The notes under the pieces were generated by a model, which did not search any database, was not told the DNA's origin, and saw only the letters and a list, made by a program, of their open reading frames with translations. From Verrucomicrobiota bacterium (GTDB lineage: Bacteria > Verrucomicrobiota > Verrucomicrobiia > Limisphaerales > JACDHS01): a stretch of 46,210 bases of DNA. Location: contig JACDHS010000021.1 in NCBI GenBank assembly GCA_013820875.1, positions 1 through 46,210 on the forward strand. The letters run 5' to 3'. Each line of letters begins with the position of its first letter. Position 1 is the first letter of the stretch. Shown one piece after another: positions 1,695 through 46,210 of this stretch. The position numbers and the translations under genes were made by a program.

Positions 1695-4600
1695 TCATTT
1701 GCGAGCTTCTGAACTGGCGTGATCGGGTGGAGGTCGATACCAAAGGGATTTCCAATAGGTTTGTTCGACCGCATACACGTTCATCGGATCATCCGGAGTC
1801 GTGCAGTCAGGCAAAATCCCGTATCGTTTCATCTCACGGACCCAATCCACCCTCGGCTGGAAACCGGGCATGTCGAATCGCTTATCCTTTGAGAGATACT
1901 CTTTGCCAGTCGTTGCCAGGGCGAGAAGAGCTTTGTAGCCGGGATCATTTTTGTCGGCAAAAACGGTCACTGGCTGTTGTGTTTTCGGATCGTAACAAAG
2001 ACCGAAGCCACCCGCGCTTTCGGCCAGTGGCGCAAGGAGCATCAGAGATTTTTCAGGCCGGGAAAGATTCCAGACAATGTGCCGGCTGGTTTTCAATCGA
2101 GGATCGTCCATGCTCGGACGCCAGAAGGAAACGTCCCGTTCGTCGGCCAGATCCAAAGGCAACAGACGCGAGGGAGCATTGTGACAATCGAAGCATCGAT
2201 TTTTCACGACACTCGAAGCAACCTTTGTTTCAGGCCAGTCGGCGCCTGTATTCACCTGCACATTTTCAATGTAGTTGCCGATCATACCGCAACCGAGCGC
2301 GGCGTAGGTGCCCGGGTAGGCTGCGCCGGATTCGATCCAGAGTCGCAACAATTTCACCTCGTGCGCGGTGGCTTTGACTCCGTGATGAGAGCCGTCAATG
2401 TAGGAAAGCAATTTGCTGTTTGAGGAGCCCAGCGCGCGCGGTTCGTAGTTGCTTTTCGCCATGTTGCGCCCATCGGCAACGAGTCGATTAATTGTGATGG
2501 TGTAATAACTTTGGCTGAAGATAGGGCCACGATCTCCAGTGAGCAGGAGTTTTCCAGCCGCCGGGCCGCCTCGCGCAGTTTTTTCGTAGCCGTGACAATC
2601 CGTGCATAACGCATTGAGAACCGGTTGCACGTCCCGGGGGAAATCAAAGACATCAGGCACATCGCGGATCGGTTCGATTTTCTGCGGTGGCTTGCGCAGT
2701 GCGAACAGATGTTTTCCATCAGTCTTCGGGGTTTCCGTGCGATGTTCGTGGCAGCCAACGCAACTGAGCCGTTCGCCCGGCATGGCCGTTGTGAAACTTT
2801 GCATGCGTTTCACAGAGAGATCGTTTTCATCCAACGCGACGAAAAACAGGCTGCGTAGCGCGGGCACTTCAAAGTGAGCCGAGCCATCTTCCTCAACGGG
2901 CACTGTGCCGAGAATGCGTTCGAGCGTGAAAGTCCCGCCATAGCTGATTGGTTCCATGCCGCCGGTGAAGTGGATCGGCATTGGCAAGGATTCGAGCACC
3001 AGCAGTTTCTTGATTTCGCCATGTTGCACACCATCCATGCGGCGACCGTGATTGACGTCAGCAAGAAGCATGTAACCGACGTTCAGGTCGGGCTGGACAC
3101 GCGGTTGGATGATCGGTTCGCGCGCACGCGGAACAAGTGGACGCGGCTCGTGACATTCCAAGCGGGCGGCGCGGTCTTCTTCGGAGAGTTGGAAAATTTG
3201 TTGTTCGATGCCGCGCTCGTTCATCACGACCACCGTGTCGCCAGAGGCAGCGAGAAAACATTCCTCTGAAAACGCCCATGGATCGCGGTAGTTCGCCCGA
3301 CGACTGATGCTCTGGGCGAAGTTCTTCGCATCGGGACCGCCCCTGGGATCTACCACGGTGATGACGCCGTCGTGCTCACGCTGTCCGTGTCCCGGCGAAA
3401 ATGATGCGACGACTTTGTGGCTGTTGGGAATCGGTTTGGCGTCGATCATGGTGATCGTCGGGTGCATGTTGCCGTACCAGATTTGCTGCATGGTGCCGTC
3501 GGGATTGGCCGACCAGAGATGATGAAAATCAACCTGGCTTCGATCCACATATTCCCAGCGGGTGTAAAGAATGCGCCCGTCGGGGAGCGGCCACGGCGTA
3601 TTGTCATGCTCGTTATTGCTCGACAGCGCCTGGATGTTTGAGCCGTCCGCGTCGCATCGGTACAACACCGCGACCTGCGTGAGCCAGCAATTGACGTAGC
3701 GATTGCACCGGCTGGAAACGAACACGATGCCACCGTCCGGCATGTAGGTCGGTTCTATGTCGTCAAAAGGGCCGCTGGTCAATTGGCGGAGACCAGTGCC
3801 GTCACTATTCATTACGTAAAGGTTGTAGTGCTCGGTACCGCCGGGCCGATACGAAAACAAAATTGTCTTCCCATCATAATGAACCTGCGGATCGCGAATG
3901 CCGCCTTTCTCATCAGCAAGCAAGGTGATCAAATTTCCGGTTCGCAGATTCAGCCGGTAAAGTTTTGCCCCTTCGGCGTAGGCTTTCCGCTCTGGCTCGG
4001 GTCCGTAATTGCCGAAATTGGCATACCAATGGCCGTCGCCTCCCAAAGCGCGGGCGGCAAAGATGACTTCATCCACATCGCGCATCGGGCCTTGGAGAAA
4101 ATCGGGAAGCAGTTCCTCAGCGATGCTATTTGGAGTCTTTGGCGGCTGTGGATTGGTTCCGACGTAAATGTAGTCGTACATGATCCAACTGCTGTCGCGT
4201 AATTTGAGCTGAATTTCATTCGGTCCGGCGCGCAATGCATCTGGAGGCAAGGCAAAGACCATCGCCTCGGGTTGGCCCAGAAGGGTGGGATCGCCCGAGC
4301 CTGACCCGGAGCCGCGTGGCACTTTGCGGCTGGCGATTTGTTTTCCGTTGAACGACACATCGAGGGTGGAAGCGCTAAAGGCTTCGGCTTGCCCTATGAT
4401 CAGGTGCATAGCATCCGCTGGAACGGCAGTGAGGGCGAACCGGATGGTGAAAGTGTGCGCGCGACTGCCAGCCCAGCCGTCGCTGTTACTCGGATGAATG
4501 TAAGGCCAGGCATCGAGAGTGTCTTTGCCGACGTTGAAGATGACTGGATTCGAATACTTTTTCTGGTACCCCCGCCAGGTTTCCTTCGCCAGGCCAAACT

Positions 4601-4760
4601 CCATGGCACTGCCATCAGGTTTGCCGATCCAGAAGAGCGTGCCGTCGTCCGACAGCCCGCAGGCGTCCGCGCCGAAAGCCGAATGTCCGGCGAACAGCAG
4701 TGAAATAGCGACAAGCAAAACGCAAGGCATCGACAGGAATCTGGTTCCGGGCGTCTTCAT
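1695..4760 (-). CDS. Secreted PL4-like/PD40 beta-propeller/multi-heme protein (HzsA-like)
   Basis: A 1021-residue exported protein. The start at 4760 gives a clear signal peptide (MKTPGTR..., hydrophobic [13 protein letters not shown]); an upstream in-frame ATG at 4778 would only add six residues. Residues ~30-180 ([50 protein letters not shown]) resemble the C-terminal carbohydrate-binding-like domain of family 4 polysaccharide lyases. The middle holds PD40/TolB-type propeller repeats (ILFSYRPGG...[22 protein letters not shown]). The C-terminal half resembles hydrazine-synthase-alpha-like proteins of PVC bacteria. It has three CxxCH heme motifs: CVGCH (~665), CTDCH (~720) and CFDCH (~858). 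It is probably periplasmic and acts in electron transfer or sugar oxidation; the substrate is unknown. The anammox function should not be assumed. Confidence 0.8.
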
Positions 4761-4891
4761 AAAACCGAAAGGGACCACTCTCTAATGCGTCATTTGCGAG
4801 AAGCCAGCCTTGACGCAAGTCAATACCTGTCAATTTTTACATTGAACGGTGGATTCCACGATGCTGCGCGATGAGGTTCCGCCGGTTCAAA

Positions 4892-29660: not shown

Positions 29661-30833
29661 TCACTCCACCCACTTCCAATGCGGGCGATCGAGCGATGTT
29701 TGTCCTTTCACCTGCGTCTGGCCGAGCTCTTTCTCCAATTCGATCAGATGAACATCCGCGCCTCTGTTCAGTTCATCCGCCAATGCGGCGGAATGTGTCA
29801 CGACCCAGAGCTGCATTCGTTCGGACGCATTGACGATGAGTTTGGCCAACGCAGGAAGCAGGTCGGGATGCAGACTCGTCTCCGGTTCGTTCAAGACCAT
29901 CATCTGAGGAGGACGCGGCGTGAGCAACGCGGCCACCCACAACAAATAACGCAACGTGCCGTCAGATAACTCCGCTCCGGTGAGAGGTCGCAGCAGACCG
30001 GGCAGACGAAGTTCAACGGCGAACCGGCAATCGCCCGGTTGAGCGATGGACAATTCCGCTCCAGGAAACGCTTCATGGACGGCGTGCGCCACTTCATCGG
30101 GATCACCGATCTCCATGATCGTTTGCAGCGCGGCAGCAAGGTCTTTGCCGTCGTGTCCGAGCACCATCGTCCGCGTGCCCAATTGCGGCGAGCGACACGG
30201 CGCGTCGGGATCGGTGCGGAATTGATCGTAAAAGCGCCACCCGCGAATCGTTTCGCGCAACATCAAAACTTCCGGTGCCGTATTCGGATCAGCGATCTGG
30301 AGAAAAATGCTTTCGAACAGGTTCAATCCGCCGTCGTGAAGCTGCCAACCTTGATCCGTGCGAATTCGGACTGAGGGCCCGGTTCGATCCACCAGCACCC
30401 GTTCCGGTTTGCAAACCGGGCCGGACCAGATGCATTCACGTTTAATCTCCGGGTCCAACGCAAACGCCGTTGGATTCATCCTATCCGCTGGCGGCGGCAG
30501 TCCCATGGCGATGCAATAACCAAAATCCTCTCCCGAAAATCCAAGCTTCAAGCGCTTCGGATCCTTTCGCGCCGTCCCTTGAATCGGGACACGTCCGGCA
30601 CGCATGTCGCGCGTGATTTTCTCCGGCCCCGCCCAGAAGGTGGAAGGAAGCCCGCCTTCCCGAGCCAACGAACTGACAATGCCACCGCTCGCCGTGTCTG
30701 CGAGCAGCCGCAGACTTTTGTAGAGATTCGATTTGCCCGACCCGTTCACCCCTTTGATGACATTCAATCTTCCCAGCGGAACAACGAGGTTCCGCAAAGA
30801 GCGATAGTTCTCAACGGCCAAGGTGGTGAGCAT
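29661..30833 (-). CDS. RecF/SMC-like AAA ATPase
   Basis: A 390-residue ATPase of the AAA_21/AAA_15 type. VENYRSLRNLVVPLGRLNVI opens the domain. Walker A is GVNGSGKSN (~residues 28-36), a signature-like LSDGTLRYLLWVAAL (~290-305) follows, Walker B is MMVLNEPETSLHPDLL and the switch histidine is in WVVTHSAAL. There is no Toprim or other nuclease domain after it, unlike full OLD proteins. Such standalone ATPases often pair with an effector in defence loci. Here the partner on the same strand is the DUF4240 protein. It is divergent from the FRG/DUF262 pair. Confidence 0.88.
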   Translation of the reverse strand: MLTTLAVENYRSLRNLVVPLGRLNVIKGVNGSGKSNLYKSLRLLADTASGGIVSSLAREGGLPSTFWAGPEKITRDMRAGRVPIQGTARKDPKRLKLGFSGEDFGYCIAMGLPPPADRMNPTAFALDPEIKRECIWSGPVCKPERVLVDRTGPSVRIRTDQGWQLHDGGLNLFESIFLQIADPNTAPEVLMLRETIRGWRFYDQFRTDPDAPCRSPQLGTRTMVLGHDGKDLAAALQTIMEIGDPDEVAHAVHEAFPGAELSIAQPGDCRFAVELRLPGLLRPLTGAELSDGTLRYLLWVAALLTPRPPQMMVLNEPETSLHPDLLPALAKLIVNASERMQLWVVTHSAALADELNRGADVHLIELEKELGQTQVKGQTSLDRPHWKWVE

Positions 30834-30895
30834 GTGGTGGCGAGACTAACCGGAAAACGGGTCAGCCTTCAACACCACGTAAATTCAAAAATCTG

Positions 30896-30919
30896 TGTCA
30901 ATAGTACGGACCTGACCCC
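30896..30919 (+). repeat. MITE-terminus-like repeat, left flank of FRG/DUF262
   Basis: TGTCAATAGTACGGACCTGA followed by CCCC. A related sequence (TGTCAATACTATGGACTGAA then CCC) forms the right end of the MITE-like element at 33011-33144, in the same orientation. The FRG/DUF262 pair therefore has directly repeated related sequences on both sides. No matching inverted terminus is visible at this left copy. Confidence 0.6.
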
Positions 30920-31012
30920 AAACTTTCATTGGACAAATTTTTAATTCCAAGCAAACTCCCTAGACATCAACCCTTGGACATCAACCCTTCGACTGCAACG
31001 GGATAGAACCGC

Positions 31013-31798
31013 ATGAAAAACGTGAAAAAAACCACGAACAATGGTTCGTTCAAAAGCATTGGAGAACTGATCGATTTACTCAAACGCGGGTCTATCGGGA
31101 AGTCGACTGTTTGGTTTAGGGGACAATCCGTAGCAAAATGGAAGCTGCAGCCCTCGATCATGAGGCCACCGCACTCGTTCGATGATGAGGTTGTTCTTCT
31201 TAAAAGGTTTAAGCAAAATGCTGTTTCATTGATGGACGCCGTGCCAACATCGGAAGCGGATTGGCTCTTCCTGATGCAACATCATGATGTTCCGACCAGA
31301 CTCCTTGATTGGACGGAAAGCCCTTTAGTTTCCCTTTATTTCGCAGTTGGGCCGTCGGGTGATAGTAAACACGATTCGGAAGATGCAGCGCTTTGGTGCC
31401 TTTTTCCGCATTCACTGAATCATATGGTAGGTGTTCGCATGGATTCAACCCATGACATTCCGAGTTTCGGTCATGAGGATGTTTTAGACGGCTATCTTCC
31501 TTCACGAGCGGCTGGAATCAAAAGCGCGTCACCTAAACCGATTGCGCTGATTGCCCCACGCCCCTTTCGGCGCCTACACGTTCAGCAGGGTGTTTTTACA
31601 CTTTTTCACCGCAACCCAATTCCTTTGGAGGAGATCGTGGATGACTACGGCAAATCTCCACATATTGTAAAGTTCATTATACCGGCAAGTGCCAAGCCTA
31701 AGCTGCGTCAAGAGCTGCAACTTCTGCAAATTGACCGGCTTGCGCTCTTCCCCGAATTGGAAAACGTCGCAGCACGAATTTTGATTCTCAAAAAATGA
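31013..31798 (+). CDS. FRG-domain protein
   Basis: A 261-residue protein with a complete FRG domain. VWFRGQSVAKWKLQPSI (~residues 40-56) is the name-giving motif. LFLMQHHDVPTRLLDWTESP, then LVSLYFAVG (~85-113), is the second invariant block. The C-terminal third has APRPFRRLHVQQGVFTLFHR (~185-204), another typical FRG segment. The biochemical activity is unknown. FRG proteins are recurrent in defence islands, abortive-infection-like loci and mobile regions. The stop codon overlaps the start of the DUF262 gene by four bases (ATGA), so they are very probably a functional pair. The coding sequence is visibly richer in A/T than the housekeeping genes nearby. Confidence 0.9.
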   Translation: MKNVKKTTNNGSFKSIGELIDLLKRGSIGKSTVWFRGQSVAKWKLQPSIMRPPHSFDDEVVLLKRFKQNAVSLMDAVPTSEADWLFLMQHHDVPTRLLDWTESPLVSLYFAVGPSGDSKHDSEDAALWCLFPHSLNHMVGVRMDSTHDIPSFGHEDVLDGYLPSRAAGIKSASPKPIALIAPRPFRRLHVQQGVFTLFHRNPIPLEEIVDDYGKSPHIVKFIIPASAKPKLRQELQLLQIDRLALFPELENVAARILILKK

Positions 31799-32916
31799 AG
31801 ACAAATTCCTTATCCCATTCACCGACTGAGATTAACGTATTTCCGCTCACTAATACAAACTCAGCGATTCTAACGTATCTCGATAGAGATAAGGTATTCA
31901 TGAATCCGACGTATCAGCGCGAAGGAAATATTTGGCCTGATGAAAAAAAACAGCTATTGATTGATTCACTTATCAATCGCTTCGATATTCCAAAACTGTA
32001 CTTTCACGAGTATCTTGAGCCTCAGCTTATTGAAGGAAAAAAGAAAAAATACGCAGTCATCGACGGGAAACAGCGTCTTTTGGCTATTTGGGACTTCATT
32101 GACAATGCTTTTCCTTTGGGGGACCGATTTGAATATTTACCTGATCCAAGCTTAAATCTTTCCGGGCTTACTTATCGCGAATTAACGGAATCCTACCCTC
32201 ACGTCAAAGCGCAATTTGATAATTGGCCTTTGGCGATAATGGTGGTGCGTACCGATGACATCGAGTTGATTGAAGATATGTTCTCGCGACTAAATGAAGC
32301 GGTTCCATTAAATGCCGCCGAGAAACGTAATGCTTTTGGCGGACCATTGCCTCCTCTTATCCGGAAACTGGTCAAAGAATCTCTTTTCGTAACTAAACTT
32401 CCGTTCAAGAACAGTCGATATCGCCATTTTGATGTGGCCTGCAAATTCCTCTATCTCTGTATGATAGGCAGTCCGGCGGATACAAAAAAAATCAAGCTTG
32501 ACGAGTTTGTTAAGGATTTCCAGAAATCGTCAGATACCAAAAAGGGACGGGAGTTGTATGCGGCCACTACAAAGATACTTACTCACATGAGTGATATCTT
32601 CACAGTGGGTGACCCACTTTTGAAAAATATCGGAACAGTTGTCGCCTACTTTCTTATATTTAAGCGAGCCGCGGCAGCAGGAGAATTAACAGGGCTTAGC
32701 CGAAAGAGATTCGTCGAATTTGATGCTCATCGAGAAAAAAATTCCGAAATTGCTGCTAAAGATATTACCAAGGCTGACTACGAATTTATGAAGTTCGATG
32801 AACTAACCGGTTCTGTGAACGACGGACATGCAATTCGATTCCGCTGCAGATTGATTAGTAAGTTCGTTCTTGGGGCAACATCCAAGACTGCGCTCTCATT
32901 CCCAGAAAAAGTGTAG
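31795..32916 (+). CDS. DUF262 (GmrS/ParB-like) protein without an HNH domain
   Basis: A 373-residue protein with an N-terminal DUF262 fold. NPTYQREGNIWPDEKKQLLI (~residues 39-58), VIDGKQRLLAIWDF (~89-102, the DGQQR-type nucleotide-binding motif) and MFSRLNEAVPLNAAEKRNAF (~163-182) are all present. DUF262 proteins such as GmrSD or SspE-like restriction factors often have a C-terminal DUF1524 HNH nuclease; the H/N/H pattern is not seen in the C-terminal ~170 residues, which look helical. It may bind and hydrolyse nucleotides, or nick DNA through the ParB-like domain, with the FRG protein as partner. This is inferred from family and gene overlap. The coding sequence is A/T-rich. Confidence 0.88.
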   Translation: MKTNSLSHSPTEINVFPLTNTNSAILTYLDRDKVFMNPTYQREGNIWPDEKKQLLIDSLINRFDIPKLYFHEYLEPQLIEGKKKKYAVIDGKQRLLAIWDFIDNAFPLGDRFEYLPDPSLNLSGLTYRELTESYPHVKAQFDNWPLAIMVVRTDDIELIEDMFSRLNEAVPLNAAEKRNAFGGPLPPLIRKLVKESLFVTKLPFKNSRYRHFDVACKFLYLCMIGSPADTKKIKLDEFVKDFQKSSDTKKGRELYAATTKILTHMSDIFTVGDPLLKNIGTVVAYFLIFKRAAAAGELTGLSRKRFVEFDAHREKNSEIAAKDITKADYEFMKFDELTGSVNDGHAIRFRCRLISKFVLGATSKTALSFPEKV

Positions 32917-33010
32917 TCGCAATAATCGTATAAAAAGCAACCTCGGAACTGCTGATAGATCGCACCTATGTTATTTTCGGAATAGCGGTTTCTTCAGCAA
33001 CGCGAAAAAA

Positions 33011-33144
33011 GGGGTCACTCCTCACTATTTACATCAATCCTCTCGCCGATCGCCAAATCGTTCTAGAGTATTGAGACTTTGCCGCCGATGGCTTGGAATG
33101 CTTCAAGCCACTGCAAACTTGTGTCAATACTATGGACTGAACCC
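33011..33144. mobile_element. MITE-like element of 134 bp
   Basis: Terminal inverted repeats of 23 bp match at 17 positions: the left end begins GGGGTCACTCC and ends ACTATTTACA (33011-33033); the right end begins TGTCAATACTATGGAC and ends GAACCC (33122-33144). The interior has no gene. No target-site duplication is obvious. The right terminus is related to the sequence at 30896-30919. The remaining bases of 32917-33174 show nothing else. Confidence 0.6.
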
Positions 33145-33174
33145 TTTTCCATTGGCGAATTAGCCTCGATTGAA

Positions 33175-34407
33175 CTACAGAAATGCTTTGATTTCGCTCC
33201 AAGTCACGTCTTCGGCCTTCTTAGGTAGAGGGCACAGTTGCCTTGCTTGGACCCAGTGATCCCAATGCTGGTAAATAGCTGCCCGAGCGTGTTGCTGGCA
33301 GTTCTGAGGGTGTGGGTGGACTACCACAATTCTGTTCTCTTTTGATCGTAGAAGCCATGCAATTAATCGCGAATTGATTCCCTTATCACCGAAGCCGTAT
33401 CCGCAAGTTACAATCCGATTAACTTTCTTAAGAGCATTATAGAATTCCACATGGAGATCCTCATATAGATAGTTCGTGTAATCGCTCATTTTGTTGTGCG
33501 TTCCCATGAGTATCAGTGGTCTCGTTATGTCCACTCCAGGTAACACTTTGGTGATCTGAGCCACACCTGGAGACACACGTTTTTCAGTTTTAGACTCCCG
33601 AATCCAGACCCAATCCACTGAACCGTGCAGCTTTACAAATTTCAAAATACAAGTATCGAACAGTTCAGGCCTCCAATAACGGACGCCGTGTTCGTCAGGT
33701 TGATCAAAGCCATCCACATGGTTCACCTCTAACTTTTGGAGTAACCGGTCCAGTAGGGGGTCGTGGTTCAGAGAAAAAATCCAGTTGGTTTCTGCAGTTC
33801 TGCACGCTTCACCTATCCAGGATAAGTAGTCGACTGAGCATTTTGGCTTTGACAGTTCTGCAGCTACAATGTCGCGAATGTAGTTGGACGCTTCATTCGC
33901 GACTTGGAGAAGATTGGAAAGACGATGCATGTACCAGTCGCCGTTACTCCTTCGTACGGACCTAAGTTTTTGAGGATCTTCAGTCAGCACGCTTTGAAGT
34001 TTATGGTCTAGATCTCGAATCAAGGGATTCAACGCCGGATTTTCTAGATCGCCGCTGAGACTGCCAACGATCTGATGAAGCATAAATTGAAGATCTTCAT
34101 AGTTTGGCTGCCGTTCCGCGTAAAAATATAGATCGGCTTCGGACTTGAGCAGTTGAAGAAGCAGGCGAATTCGGTTTAAAGCCCCGGTCGAGGAATGTTC
34201 CATGGCCTGTGGACATTCGCCGGAAAGGTATCTACCGCTTGTGTGCAGAAACACGTCACTATCTCCAAGAACCCGTGTCGTGAGTAGTGCTGTACTGGGG
34301 AGACCGGCTCTGATTGAACTTCCGGCACCAAACAAAAACGCGAGAGACATACCTGAAAGTATGGAGGAGACGTTGATCTGCTTTAGCTCGGTTTCACGAT
34401 GTGCCAA
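33175..34407 (-). CDS. SIR2-like protein
   Basis: A 410-residue protein with a SIR2-like NAD-binding fold. AFLFGAGSSIRAGLPS (~residues 23-38) is the glycine-rich NAD loop. NWIFSLNHDPLLDRLL (~220-235) holds the Asn-Asp that replaces the TQNID motif, and FVKLHGSVDW (~263-272) carries the catalytic-position histidine. ILMGTHNKMSDYTNYLYEDL, then NRIVTCGYGFGDKGINSRLI, is the later fold half with its sensor strand. The residues needed for NAD cleavage seem present. SIR2 domains of this class act as NADase effectors in several anti-phage systems (Thoeris, DSR, SPARSA). The gene overlaps the end of the upstream nuclease gene by 25 bp if the first ATG is used; an internal ATG at 34350 would leave a 32-bp gap. 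Confidence 0.85.
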   Translation of the reverse strand: MAHRETELKQINVSSILSGMSLAFLFGAGSSIRAGLPSTALLTTRVLGDSDVFLHTSGRYLSGECPQAMEHSSTGALNRIRLLLQLLKSEADLYFYAERQPNYEDLQFMLHQIVGSLSGDLENPALNPLIRDLDHKLQSVLTEDPQKLRSVRRSNGDWYMHRLSNLLQVANEASNYIRDIVAAELSKPKCSVDYLSWIGEACRTAETNWIFSLNHDPLLDRLLQKLEVNHVDGFDQPDEHGVRYWRPELFDTCILKFVKLHGSVDWVWIRESKTEKRVSPGVAQITKVLPGVDITRPLILMGTHNKMSDYTNYLYEDLHVEFYNALKKVNRIVTCGYGFGDKGINSRLIAWLLRSKENRIVVVHPHPQNCQQHARAAIYQHWDHWVQARQLCPLPKKAEDVTWSEIKAFL

Positions 34408-35585
34408 AGATCCTGCTTGAAGGCGGAGATATAATCAAAAAGCAGCGTTTCCTCTGTTGGGTAAATAAAGTTTTTTTTCATCCTGAAAAAGTCTTTTTCA
34501 AAGACGAATTCATCCAGTCGGCCCATCTTCTCCAGCATCGCCGCCGCTCTGCCGTTCTTTTGCGGTCGATCGTTCCGGTCCCAGAATTGGAAGAGATAGA
34601 AATCAGGCTCAGCCCAGACATCGATTCCAAGATGGGCGTCCTTCCAAGGGCATTCGGTGAAATAAGCGTCGCGGTTCGAGTAGATATCAATTCTGCCGAA
34701 GGGACGCAGATCGTTCTTAAAATGATCAACAATCCGGTGTGCCCGGTAGGAAGCCAGATCATCGACCATGGCTTTGAGTGCGAGGGCAGTCTGGAAATTG
34801 TCGCCCTGACACATGATTTGATGAAATGCTTCCATCACAGGTTTGTTCATGATGTTTCGTCCAAGTTTTCTGATTATTTCTGCGTATTGGCAGATGCTGT
34901 ATTTAACGTTTAAATCGGTAGATTGCTCTGCGCATTTGAGCAGCCAGCCGTGCAGTAGATCATTGTGCGAACTGTCGTAAGCGCAGATAACTTTGAGCAG
35001 GTTTTTAATTTCGTGCGCTTCCTGCGGTGTCCAGTCGGTTGTTGCCGGTCCGGCGCATCCAATCAATCGCAGGTAAACGATCGCGTCACAGTAGTAGCCG
35101 TTGCTGCGGACATAGTCCAGGTAACCGGGAATCTGCCGCCGTCGATCGGCAGCGTTGTTGATCTTGTTCTCGACGAAAATCGCTTTTTTCGACTTCTGAT
35201 CGACAATCAGAAGATCAATGCGGCCGATTTCTCGTGTGACTTCAGGCTCAGTGTAGTCTGCCAGGTTTATCCGGGCTCCATGCAGCTTTAGAAATTCAAG
35301 AAACAAGTAGCAGAAGAGATGTTTCTGTTGATGTTTCCCATTTGGGTTCAGCAGCGCATATAGAATATCGCTGTGGAACGTTTCCCGGTAGTAATAATCT
35401 GAGATCAGCTCAAATAAATTGAAACCAAGCTCGTGGTCTTTATGAGACAGGTTGTCCCGGTAGGTTCCCGCCAATCCAGAAAGGTACTTGTCGCGAATGA
35501 AGTCGTGAACCCGAGATACTGCTCCTCTGTTAAAAAAACAGATTTGCTGCAGGAGAGCCATTTCTCGAGTGAGCAGCGGTTGCAT
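34383..35585 (-). CDS. PD-(D/E)XK nuclease family protein (PDDEXK_4-like)
   Basis: A 400-residue protein from the ATG at 35585; the frame is open to 35693, but that part overlaps an unrelated truncated coding segment, and the ATG at 35561 is another option. YYRETFHSDILYALLNPNGK leads into the nuclease core. GRIDLLIVDQKSKKAIFVEN (about residues 134-153) followed by KINN gives the D...ExK catalytic set, and RRQIPGYLDYVRSNGY follows. This is the PDDEXK_4 pattern of restriction-like nucleases. The C-terminal ~200 residues are an unassigned domain with DLNVKYSICQYAEIIRKLGR and WAEPDFYLFQFWDR. It is the first gene of a leftward pair whose second gene is the SIR2-like protein, with overlapping ends, suggesting joint action. 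Confidence 0.85.
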   Translation of the reverse strand: MQPLLTREMALLQQICFFNRGAVSRVHDFIRDKYLSGLAGTYRDNLSHKDHELGFNLFELISDYYYRETFHSDILYALLNPNGKHQQKHLFCYLFLEFLKLHGARINLADYTEPEVTREIGRIDLLIVDQKSKKAIFVENKINNAADRRRQIPGYLDYVRSNGYYCDAIVYLRLIGCAGPATTDWTPQEAHEIKNLLKVICAYDSSHNDLLHGWLLKCAEQSTDLNVKYSICQYAEIIRKLGRNIMNKPVMEAFHQIMCQGDNFQTALALKAMVDDLASYRAHRIVDHFKNDLRPFGRIDIYSNRDAYFTECPWKDAHLGIDVWAEPDFYLFQFWDRNDRPQKNGRAAAMLEKMGRLDEFVFEKDFFRMKKNFIYPTEETLLFDYISAFKQDLWHIVKPS

Positions 35586-35662
35586 AAAACGAGAATGCCA
35601 AATGGTTTTAGAACAGCAAGGTTGGTATGTGGGTGAGAGGGCGAGTAGTCGCACTCCGTAGC

Positions 35663-35740
35663 CAGAATTGAACGCTCCTGTTCTTCGACCCACTGGCAGG
35701 CGAGTGGGAGTAGCGCCTTAAATTCATGGGGAGTTATCAT
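35663..35740 (-). pseudogene. Truncated start of another gene at the island edge
   Basis: On the minus strand, MITPHEFKALLPLACQWVEE followed by QERSIL reads like the first ~26 residues of a hypothetical protein known from PVC bacteria, whose members open 'mLT..EFeaLLPLA..WaeeQEr.IL'. After that point the frame continues with unrelated residues into the nuclease gene. No continuation is found elsewhere in the window. I read it as a gene cut when the nuclease/SIR2 genes arrived. The family recollection is from memory and not verified. Confidence 0.5.
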
Positions 35741-36639: not shown

Positions 36640-37447
36640 CCGCGAAAGAACGCAAAGAGCGCAAAAAGGGAAGGGCTCATTGGGGGCACATTCCGGCCGG
36701 TAAGGCATCGGGTCGGAAATGGGTCCTTGGGAATTGGACGGCATTCTGTGTCGGTGGGGCGGGTGTCGGCCGATTTCGGACTGCGTTCCGGCCGGGGTGG
36801 TTTTGGACGAGCGGATCCGTTCCGGTTTCCGGGGAACGGGGTCTGAAACCGCGTGATTTGAACTTGTTTGCGCGGAAACTTCTTCAAATCACGCTGACAC
36901 AGACTTGTTTCCGCGCAAACATGTTCAAATCACGGTGATTCAAAGAAGTTTCTCCGGAAACAAGTTCAAATCAGGATGGAATGAAGAAGTTTCCCGGGAA
37001 ACAAGTTCAAATCAGGCTGATTTGAAGAAGTTTGCGCGGAAACAAGTCCAAATCACGCTGATTCAGACTTGTTTGCGCGGAAACAGGTCCATTTCCGCGT
37101 GGAAAGCAGGTGTTTTTTGGGGTTTTAATTGTTGTAAGTGGTTCCGGGAGTGCTGGTTGTGGATGGATAACGTTTTTGTTGAGGATGGAAATGATCGGGT
37201 GAAAAGGGTTTTGTGTGACACGAATTGCAGGTATTTTTTCCCAGCGCGGCGTAACCACAAGGATGCATATCCACGCTACGACTGAAGAACACGCGCCTCG
37301 AAATCTTGTTATCGTTCCACGATTCTTCAACGTATATAGTAGTACAAATTGGGGACGAAAGCTGGACGCATGGGTCGAATCGGTTCTGATTAGGACTCAG
37401 TTTGTCGCCCAGAAAAAAGTGGCGTTTCAGAGGCAGGGGAATAAATA
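36640..37447. other. Intergenic region with repeats and one doubtful small frame
   Basis: About 800 bases. A known-style dispersed repeat (GCGAAAGAACGCAAAGAGCG, 36642-36661) begins it, then CCGG-rich sequence, then the 41-bp array (36853-37100). From 37101 to 37447 little is seen. A 77-codon frame at 37215-37448 (MTRIAGIFSQRGVTTRMHIH...) ends in TAATG with the thyA start; it matches no family and I do not call it. AGGGGA about nine bases before the thyA ATG is a good ribosome site. Confidence 0.5.
36853..37100. repeat. Second tandem array, six 41-bp units with two dyads each
   Basis: The TTCAAATCA...TGATTTGAA element recurs in register every 41 bp (TTCAAATCA-type left arms at 36883, 36924, 36965, 37006 and 37047; a lone right arm at 36854). 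One copy, 37006-37026, is a perfect inverted repeat with a 3-nt centre. Between them, dyads flanked by TTT and AAA start at 36867, 36908, 36949, 36990, 37031 and 37072, again exactly 41 bp apart. Their cores vary (GCGCGG, CCGCGC, CTCCGG, CCCGGG) but remain G/C-only or nearly so. Dyad spacing is ~20.5 bp. The architecture is the same as that of the array at 1236-1490, with a different sequence. Confidence 0.9.
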
Positions 37448-38251
37448 ATGCGACGCATGCTGCAATTCCATAAACTGCTTCAGTTGGTTCTCGAAGAGGG
37501 AAAATTCAAGTCGGATCGGACTGGAACAGGAACCTACTCAGTTTTCGGTGCGCAGGCGCGATTTCCTCTTTCAGACGGTTTTCCGGTTGTGACGACCAAA
37601 AAGCTTCATCTGAAATCGATCATCTACGAATTGCTCTGGTTTCTTCGTGGCGACACGAATATCAAATTTTTAAACGAGCACGGCGTCACAATTTGGAATG
37701 AATGGGCGGATGCAAACGGCGATCTTGGCCGGGTTTACGGCGCGCAATGGTGCGACTGGCGAACCGCGGATGGCCGTTCCATCAACCAGATTGAACAGGT
37801 CATCGAGCAAATCAAAAAGACTCCCGACAGCCGCCGCCTGATCGTCAGCGCATGGAGCGTCGGTGAAATAGACAAAATGGCGCTGCCGCCATGTCATACG
37901 CTGTTCCAATTCTTCGTTCAGGATGGCGAGTTGAGCTGCCAGCTTTATCAGCGCAGTGCCGATCTGTTTTTAGGCGTGCCGTTCAACATCGCCTCTTATG
38001 CGCTGCTCACCATGATGGTGGCGCAGGTGTGCGATCTGAAACCCGGCACATTTGTTCATACGTTTGGCGATTTGCATCTCTACTCAAATCACCTGGAACA
38101 AGCGAAGCTTCAGCTCACTCGCGAGCCCCGTCCGCTGCCACAGATGAAGATCAATCCGGCAGTAAAAAACATTCGTGACTTCAATTACGAAGATTTTGAG
38201 TTGGTTGGATACGATCCCCATCCAGGTATCAAGGCTCCCATTGCGGTGTGA
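37448..38251 (+). CDS. thyA: Thymidylate synthase
   Basis: A 267-residue ThyA that methylates dUMP to dTMP using methylene-tetrahydrofolate. [20 protein letters not shown] contains the phosphate-binding arginine. The catalytic cysteine is in [12 protein letters not shown] (~residue 149). [20 protein letters not shown] (~162-181) is the dUMP-binding signature, and [10 protein letters not shown] the folate/substrate region. The length matches the usual 264 residues. The start has AGGGGA upstream; a second ATG lies three codons in. It is the first gene of a likely operon that includes folA, which regenerates the folate it oxidises. Confidence 0.98.
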
Positions 38252-45798: not shown

Positions 45799-45894
45799 GT
45801 TTGCTTTTTATCTTTACGACGTAATCGAAGCAATACCGAACGAGTAAAACTCCTTTTTAGATTCACCGAGAACTTAGAGACGCCCGGAACGTGG
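45799..45894. other. Short intergenic region upstream of the isomerase gene
   Basis: It lies between the isomerase-like gene start and the third tandem array. The segment is moderately A/T-rich and would hold the isomerase promoter; I see no clear boxes. Confidence 0.4.
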
Positions 45895-46210
45895 GCTGGA
45901 CGGTCTCAAGCCCACTTCCGGATCATCCGGAAACCGCCTGGATGGTCTCAAGCCCGCTTCCGGATCATCCGAAAACGGCCTGGATGGTCTCAAGCCCACT
46001 TCCGGATCATCCGAAAACGGCCTGGACGGTCTCAAGCCCACTTCCGGATCATCCGAAAACGGCCTGGATGGTCTCAAGGCCACTTCCGGATCATCCGGAA
46101 ACCGCCTGGACGGTCTCAAGGCCACTTCCGGATCATCCGGAAACCGCCTGGACGGTCTCAAGGCCACTTCCGGATCATCCGGAAACCGCCTGGACGGTCT
46201 CAAGGCCACT
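45895..46210. repeat. Third tandem array, 42-bp period, running off the window
   Basis: The GGACGGTCTCAAG/GGATGGTCTCAAG element starts at 45898, 45940, 45982, 46024, 46066, 46108, 46150 and 46192, exactly 42 bp apart, so there are more than seven copies and the array continues beyond the window. Each unit holds the dyad TTCCGGATCATCCGGAA (or with one base changed) and the weaker dyad GACGGTC, spaced 20 and 22 bp. A frame on the minus strand reads through it as a 14-residue repeat (ALRPSRRFPDDPEV), because 42 is a multiple of three. I regard this as incidental. Confidence 0.9.

Follow-up and report, generated by a model that had tools for sequence, protein, structure and literature searches.

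Short tandem arrays between the genes of this Verrucomicrobiota bacterium share a unit length of 41–43 bp, and their sequences are largely unrelated. This period stands out, and within the sampled sequences it is nearly restricted to one bacterial family. The window (the whole stretch of DNA analysed, 46,210 nucleotides) is an entire contig (G000:C237:1-46210) and carries three such arrays, one of them a member of a sequence family with about 30 loci in the genome.

Period, sequence and occurrence of the arrays

The sample of the genome comprised 1.34 Mb out of 5.70 Mb, with 609 kb chosen independently of the repeat family in the window; the period statistics were obtained from these 609 kb plus the window (656 kb), a sample that favours contig starts. 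Here, 39 of 41 arrays with a period of at least 13 bp and at least about 2.5 copies had a period of 41, 42 or 43 bp or a multiple of these. The two exceptions were one 14-bp repeat and one 276-bp repeat inside a gene; the latter (L080:9963-12598, 9.6 copies, 81% alike) resembles the repeated HAMP-type domains of a predicted large sensor kinase gene. In addition, an alignment-free lag spectrum of the genome sample gave 41 bp at 15 loci, 42 bp at 14, 43 bp at 8 and 27 bp at one. The earlier note had stated that 41–42 bp would lose its meaning if other periods were equally frequent, and we found other periods to be nearly absent. The typical array is short (5–6 copies), and by extrapolation the genome holds roughly 200 to 350 arrays, a figure that may be an overestimate since contig ends are array-rich.

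K-mer clustering sorted 86 arrays into about 29 sequence families, and the GC content of the arrays spanned 29 to 71%. The proposal that a single class of intergenic element is set by geometry was thus borne out, as the approximately 29 unrelated families share the period and the pattern recurs in a second genus. None of the 86 arrays overlapped a gene predicted with a simple codon-usage gene caller, compared with 81% of random placements. The gaps that hold the arrays showed no bias towards tandem, convergent or divergent gene orientation, and gap types matched the expectation for long gaps. A protein-coding repeat was ruled out, because 41 and 43 are not divisible by three and gene overlap was zero. 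A CRISPR array was also ruled out; the units are contiguous and alike over their full length, with no unique spacers.

Two further arrays had been reported in the window, and TRF confirmed both, each with a period of 41 bp. The array at 1250-1472 has 5.4 copies and the dyad CTTTCTGACGTCAGAAAG, and the sample holds no second member of its sequence family. The array at 36854-37085 shows a higher-order period of 82 bp and lies upstream of thyA (37448-38251); about 46 bp past it, on the forward strand at 37131-37142, stands the trailer motif TTGTAAGTGGTT, which is common to three other unrelated array families (TTGYAAGTSG). The short motif CCGGAAA had been put forward as a common mark of all three arrays. 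It is indeed present in each. With both strands counted, however, the window contains it 25 times, and 31 of the 86 arrays have it, mostly members of one sequence family; it was discarded as a class signature. Elsewhere in the window, genes for an AAA ATPase (AAA_21), a GmrSD-N protein and a PD-(D/E)XK nuclease are clustered at 29661-35693, possibly as a defence island, and a 1027-aa protein encoded at 1695-4778 combines a hydrazine synthase alpha middle domain (HZS_alpha) with a CBM-like domain.

For each of the two array-bearing genera, one draft genome was sampled. In G001, which belongs to another genus of the family and is the closest relative sampled, 17 of 18 arrays fit the 41–43 bp period. 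These 17 come from 439 kb of sequence; 14 have a period of exactly 41 bp, and their sequences differ from those of our genome. The earlier note had called for a comparison with related Verrucomicrobiota, which found the class in G001 and zero arrays in 20 other families of the order (20 genomes, 290 kb), where about 17 would be expected at the density of our genome. Among named loci amounting to 863 kb, mostly from Verrucomicrobiota and Planctomycetota, one array of the class was detected. This 42-bp array of 3.9 copies (L171:18554-18718) sits at the contig end of a MAG labelled Akkermansia muciniphila, with a title that suggests an environmental sample, and the locus possibly represents a third lineage carrying the class. 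Judged by one protein of the window, the closest named relatives of the bacterium are MAGs of Verrucomicrobiales (78% identity) and Pedosphaera (74%).

At orthologous gene borders, G001 mostly has an array-free gap, and where at least one of the two genomes had an array, 1 of 10 site pairs was shared. The region upstream of thyA carries an array in both genomes (36854-37085 here and L220:7248-7505, 3x41-bp, in G001), and the two sequences are unrelated. Conservation of sites between the genera was rejected, as 1 shared site in 10 is not significant against about 0.5 expected (7 x 4/58). With the arrays mostly at non-orthologous sites, a dispensable or selfish role fits as well as an architectural one. 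A mutational origin is the strongest rival to the reading proposed below, followed by a binding region of mobile elements and then by structured RNA. It holds that the period serves no selected function and is fixed at array birth, whether by quasi-palindrome template switching, by slipped-strand amplification or by a duplicating enzyme that acts on about 42 bp; the dyads would be a by-product of inverted template switching. It would explain why the arrays are free of a common sequence and dispensable at most sites, and why copies are homogenised within arrays, as in L030, where a 126-bp higher-order repeat has formed; furthermore, dyads are typical slippage substrates. However, the other families of the order have the same basic replication machinery and no such arrays, and we know of no sequence-independent process that measures 41–43 bp. 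We consider this origin unlikely.

The array at the window end and its carrier

The 42-bp array that the earlier note had placed at the end of the window was recovered by TRF at 45896-46210 on the forward strand, with 7.5 copies, 95% matches and 0% indels. The contig end interrupts it, so the 7.5 copies are the visible part only. Its unit, CTGGAYGGTCTCAAGSCCACTTCCGGATCATCCGRAAACSGC, belongs to sequence family 0, the family with about 30 loci. Two dyads recur every 42 bp. Dyad A, at 45896-45910 in the first unit (CTGGACGGTCTCAAG, centre 45903), is the weaker and imperfect one, with the pattern CTGGAyggtcTCMAG, and its arms are most distinct in variants that carry CTGGATGGTCTCCAG. Dyad B lies at 45916-45932 (TTCCGGATcATCCGGAA, centre 45924), 21 bp from dyad A in both directions. 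The centre distances of 21 and 21 bp, exactly half the period, replace the spacings of 20 and 22 bp given earlier. The whole unit has a reflection symmetry of 0.65 against a shuffle mean of 0.48 (p=0.01). Directly before the array, at 45873-45895 on the forward strand, stands the inner part of a leader, CTTAGAGACGCCCGGAACGTGGG, which is common to other family-0 copies; this is all that the window copy has kept, and the outer leader and transposon end known from other copies are missing.

Full family-0 copies consist of a leader, the array, a trailer and the inverted ends CCTAAAAACGGCAGTTAA and TTAACTGCCGTTTTAAGG, with transposon ends CCTAAAAACGGCAGTT. The inverted ends of the carrier are 18 bp long, and among the 7 array-bearing copies with paired ends, 5 are flanked by exact 5-bp target duplications. 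Ten short copies of the same transposon (157–179 bp) are array-free, 7 of them with exact 5-bp duplications, so that 12 of the 17 paired elements overall have such duplications; none of the 17 contains a predicted gene. The end motif had 150 matches genome-wide, compared with 3 for a reversed-pattern control. The presence of 5-bp duplications at array-free copies indicates that an independent miniature transposon acquired the family-0 array as cargo. An array-free form of about 176 bp with the ends CCTAAAWNCGGCAGTT and exact 5-bp target duplications was seen at L016:2563-2738, L026:17359-17534 and L035:11553-11728, among other places, and the copy of about 176 bp in L016 sits within the conserved flank of a family-2 array.

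The family-0 carrier is thus a MITE by its inverted ends (CCTAAAAACGGCAGTTAA), exact 5-bp target duplication, gene-free interior and multiple copies. In contrast, the class as a whole is not: both transposon ends were found at 8 of the 86 arrays and one end at 22, few other inverted ends were seen, and such ends are missing from most array families. The CCTA.. ends and the 5-bp target duplication of the carrier recall ISEcp1/IS1380. No autonomous partner for the family-0 transposon was found; an IS1380-type partner was rejected, as the sole PF13701 match in our genome has no inverted ends nearby. A viral, plasmid or phage source for family 0 was likewise dropped after yielding no match. The family-0 array was absent from all 57 other related genomes searched, and weak matches in three of them represent flanking sequence only.

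Dispersed copies of most other families consist of a short leader (80–140 bp) plus array units and have no transposon ends. The motif TTGYAAGTSG occurs 8 times within 130 bp of an array, always pointing outward, against 19 occurrences in all intergenic sequence of the sample, and forms an outward trailer 20–55 bp beyond the array in four unrelated families. A universal leader or trailer motif was not detected; the shared flanking sequences were general interspersed repeats and TTGYAAGTSG in these four families. Along with the carriage of family 0 by a miniature transposon with target duplications, the common short leader and the outward trailer speak for a second rival, in which non-autonomous mobile elements use the arrays in cis, as an origin or a subterminal binding region, and the binding of a transposase or replication protein at two-turn intervals fixes the spacing. 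However, the array-free form of about 176 bp also generates 5-bp duplications, so the array is unnecessary for its transposition. The lack of transposon ends in most families and the failure to find an autonomous partner also count against this rival, as does the number of matches to Y1/RAYT transposases (PF01797), which are not enriched, with 7 in our genome, 3 in G001 and 0 to 30 in the rest of the order. We regard it as rather unlikely, though more probable than the RNA explanation weighed below.

Dyads and constraint on the unit

Across the class, dyads of unlike sequence were spaced 20–22 bp (29 pairs), 62–64 bp (27) and 103–106 bp apart, and dyads of like sequence 41–43, 82–86 and 123–129 bp apart. 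From this pattern it follows that two different dyads alternate at half a period. Whole-unit reflection symmetry exceeded that of shuffles in 47 of 70 arrays; about a third of the arrays had no significant whole-unit symmetry, notably family 1 (43 bp, 7 loci). What holds for all arrays is therefore the period; alternating dyads, which had been described as a trait of the class, are common but not universal.

Adjacent copies differed by approximately 1261 substitutions and approximately 25 indel bases over 14,107 aligned bases; indels were absent from 58 of 70 arrays. In 14 dyad-bearing families, variation was 0.034–0.051 at 2–6 bp from the dyad centre, compared with 0.103 in the linkers. The near-zero indels and the stronger conservation near dyad centres suggest constraint after array birth, which argues against a purely mutational origin. 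Mismatches within dyads were G:T in 29 cases and A:C in 32 (61 in total), a balance that weakly fits double-stranded DNA and disfavours an RNA function. Family 0 showed 27 compensatory double changes against a shuffled mean of 18, a count that includes subfamily changes.

Many arrays fold better than shuffles and their dyads could form hairpins, as would be expected if the arrays were templates for structured RNAs, with hairpin chains acting as protein sponges or mRNA-stabilising ends. We judge this the least probable explanation and very unlikely. The folding z-scores, which come from mononucleotide shuffles only, are alike on both strands; G:U is not favoured over A:C; and length is almost fixed, whereas RNA hairpin chains tolerate length changes. 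Furthermore, there is no gene-orientation bias, and a tRNA was the sole match of Rfam models in the window, with no known structured RNA family at the array.

The fixed length, the dyads two turns apart, the intolerance of indels, the dyad-proximal conservation and the lack of RNA-type or orientation bias are best fitted by a lattice in double-stranded DNA. We tentatively propose that the arrays may form such a lattice of phased dyads for a putative dimeric, filament-forming DNA-binding protein, a reading that we hold to be quite possible and the likeliest of those weighed here. The conserved property of these satellite-like arrays is the geometry of the double helix: a unit of 41–43 bp spans about four helical turns and usually contains two different dyads of about 16 bp half a unit apart (20.5–21.5 bp, about two turns), so that all dyads lie on the same DNA face. 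The lattice would be bound by one or several homodimeric proteins that polymerise or cooperate along DNA, of the kind used in nucleoid organisation, silencing or anchoring; here we infer the protein itself, its cooperative binding and its role in the cell. Selection would act on spacing and twofold symmetry, and base identity would drift or track the paralogues of the protein. New arrays would grow by local duplication and unequal recombination and be copied across the genome as small units of leader plus array, which for family 0 is demonstrated by its carriage in the miniature transposon. The unrelated dyad sequences count against one sequence-specific protein; the binder would have to read structure, or there would have to be several paralogues. 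Two further observations count against the lattice, namely that about a third of the arrays have no significant symmetry and that the commonest period by family, 41 bp, is slightly less than 4 x 10.5.

Known repeat systems and significance

BIME-2 elements of enterobacteria and pseudomonads also alternate two palindromes in intergenic tandem arrays and are bound by DNA gyrase (PMC2817692), and among the described REP tags, GTAG repeats occur in the verrucomicrobium O. terrae as well (PMC3733652). The arrays described here resemble REP/BIME in being dispersed, intergenic and built of tandem or alternating palindromic units with regular spacing. However, REP families are few per genome, defined by sequence, tagged by GTAG/CGTC and linked to RAYT, whereas here about 29 unrelated sequences follow one geometry. 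The GTAG/CGTC tag at the palindrome foot is absent from both dyads of the family-0 unit, where it was looked for, and a RAYT/REP origin was ruled out on the Y1 transposase counts given above. The BOX elements of Streptococcus pneumoniae (boxA-boxB(n)-boxC) are modular and dispersed, with a tandem core of about 45 bp between conserved ends. Family 0 shares this modular build of a repeated core between conserved ends; in contrast, BOX forms a single sequence family per genome, and to our knowledge no period lock across unrelated sequences exists there.

The nearest analogue of the geometry rule is found in eukaryotic satellites, whose monomers are of nucleosome length (PMC8122249). The two would have in common rapid sequence turnover and unrelated repeats of a shared length that is linked to a unit of DNA packaging; by comparison, the present class is bacterial, forms 5–6-copy arrays dispersed between genes and has a unit of about 42 bp. 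Among openly licensed papers, we found no description of the geometry rule. It is conceivable, though doubtful, that the arrays are a genome-wide satellite DNA set purely by helical geometry, whose reader would be a filament-forming architectural protein that is specific to the lineage and largely indifferent to sequence; this would make the arrays a bacterial analogue of nucleosome-length satellites.

Bacterial repeats are usually sorted by sequence, and sequence-based repeat searches overlook a class such as this one, in which two genera have arrived at one unit length with unrelated sequences. The class also accounts for part of the contig breaks seen when genomes of the lineage are in draft form. 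The spacing must be held by a DNA-binding or packaging system, or else arise from a mutational machine that measures about 42 bp; either would be new. These results suggest that spacing, and not the letters, is what matters to the cell or to a mobile element.
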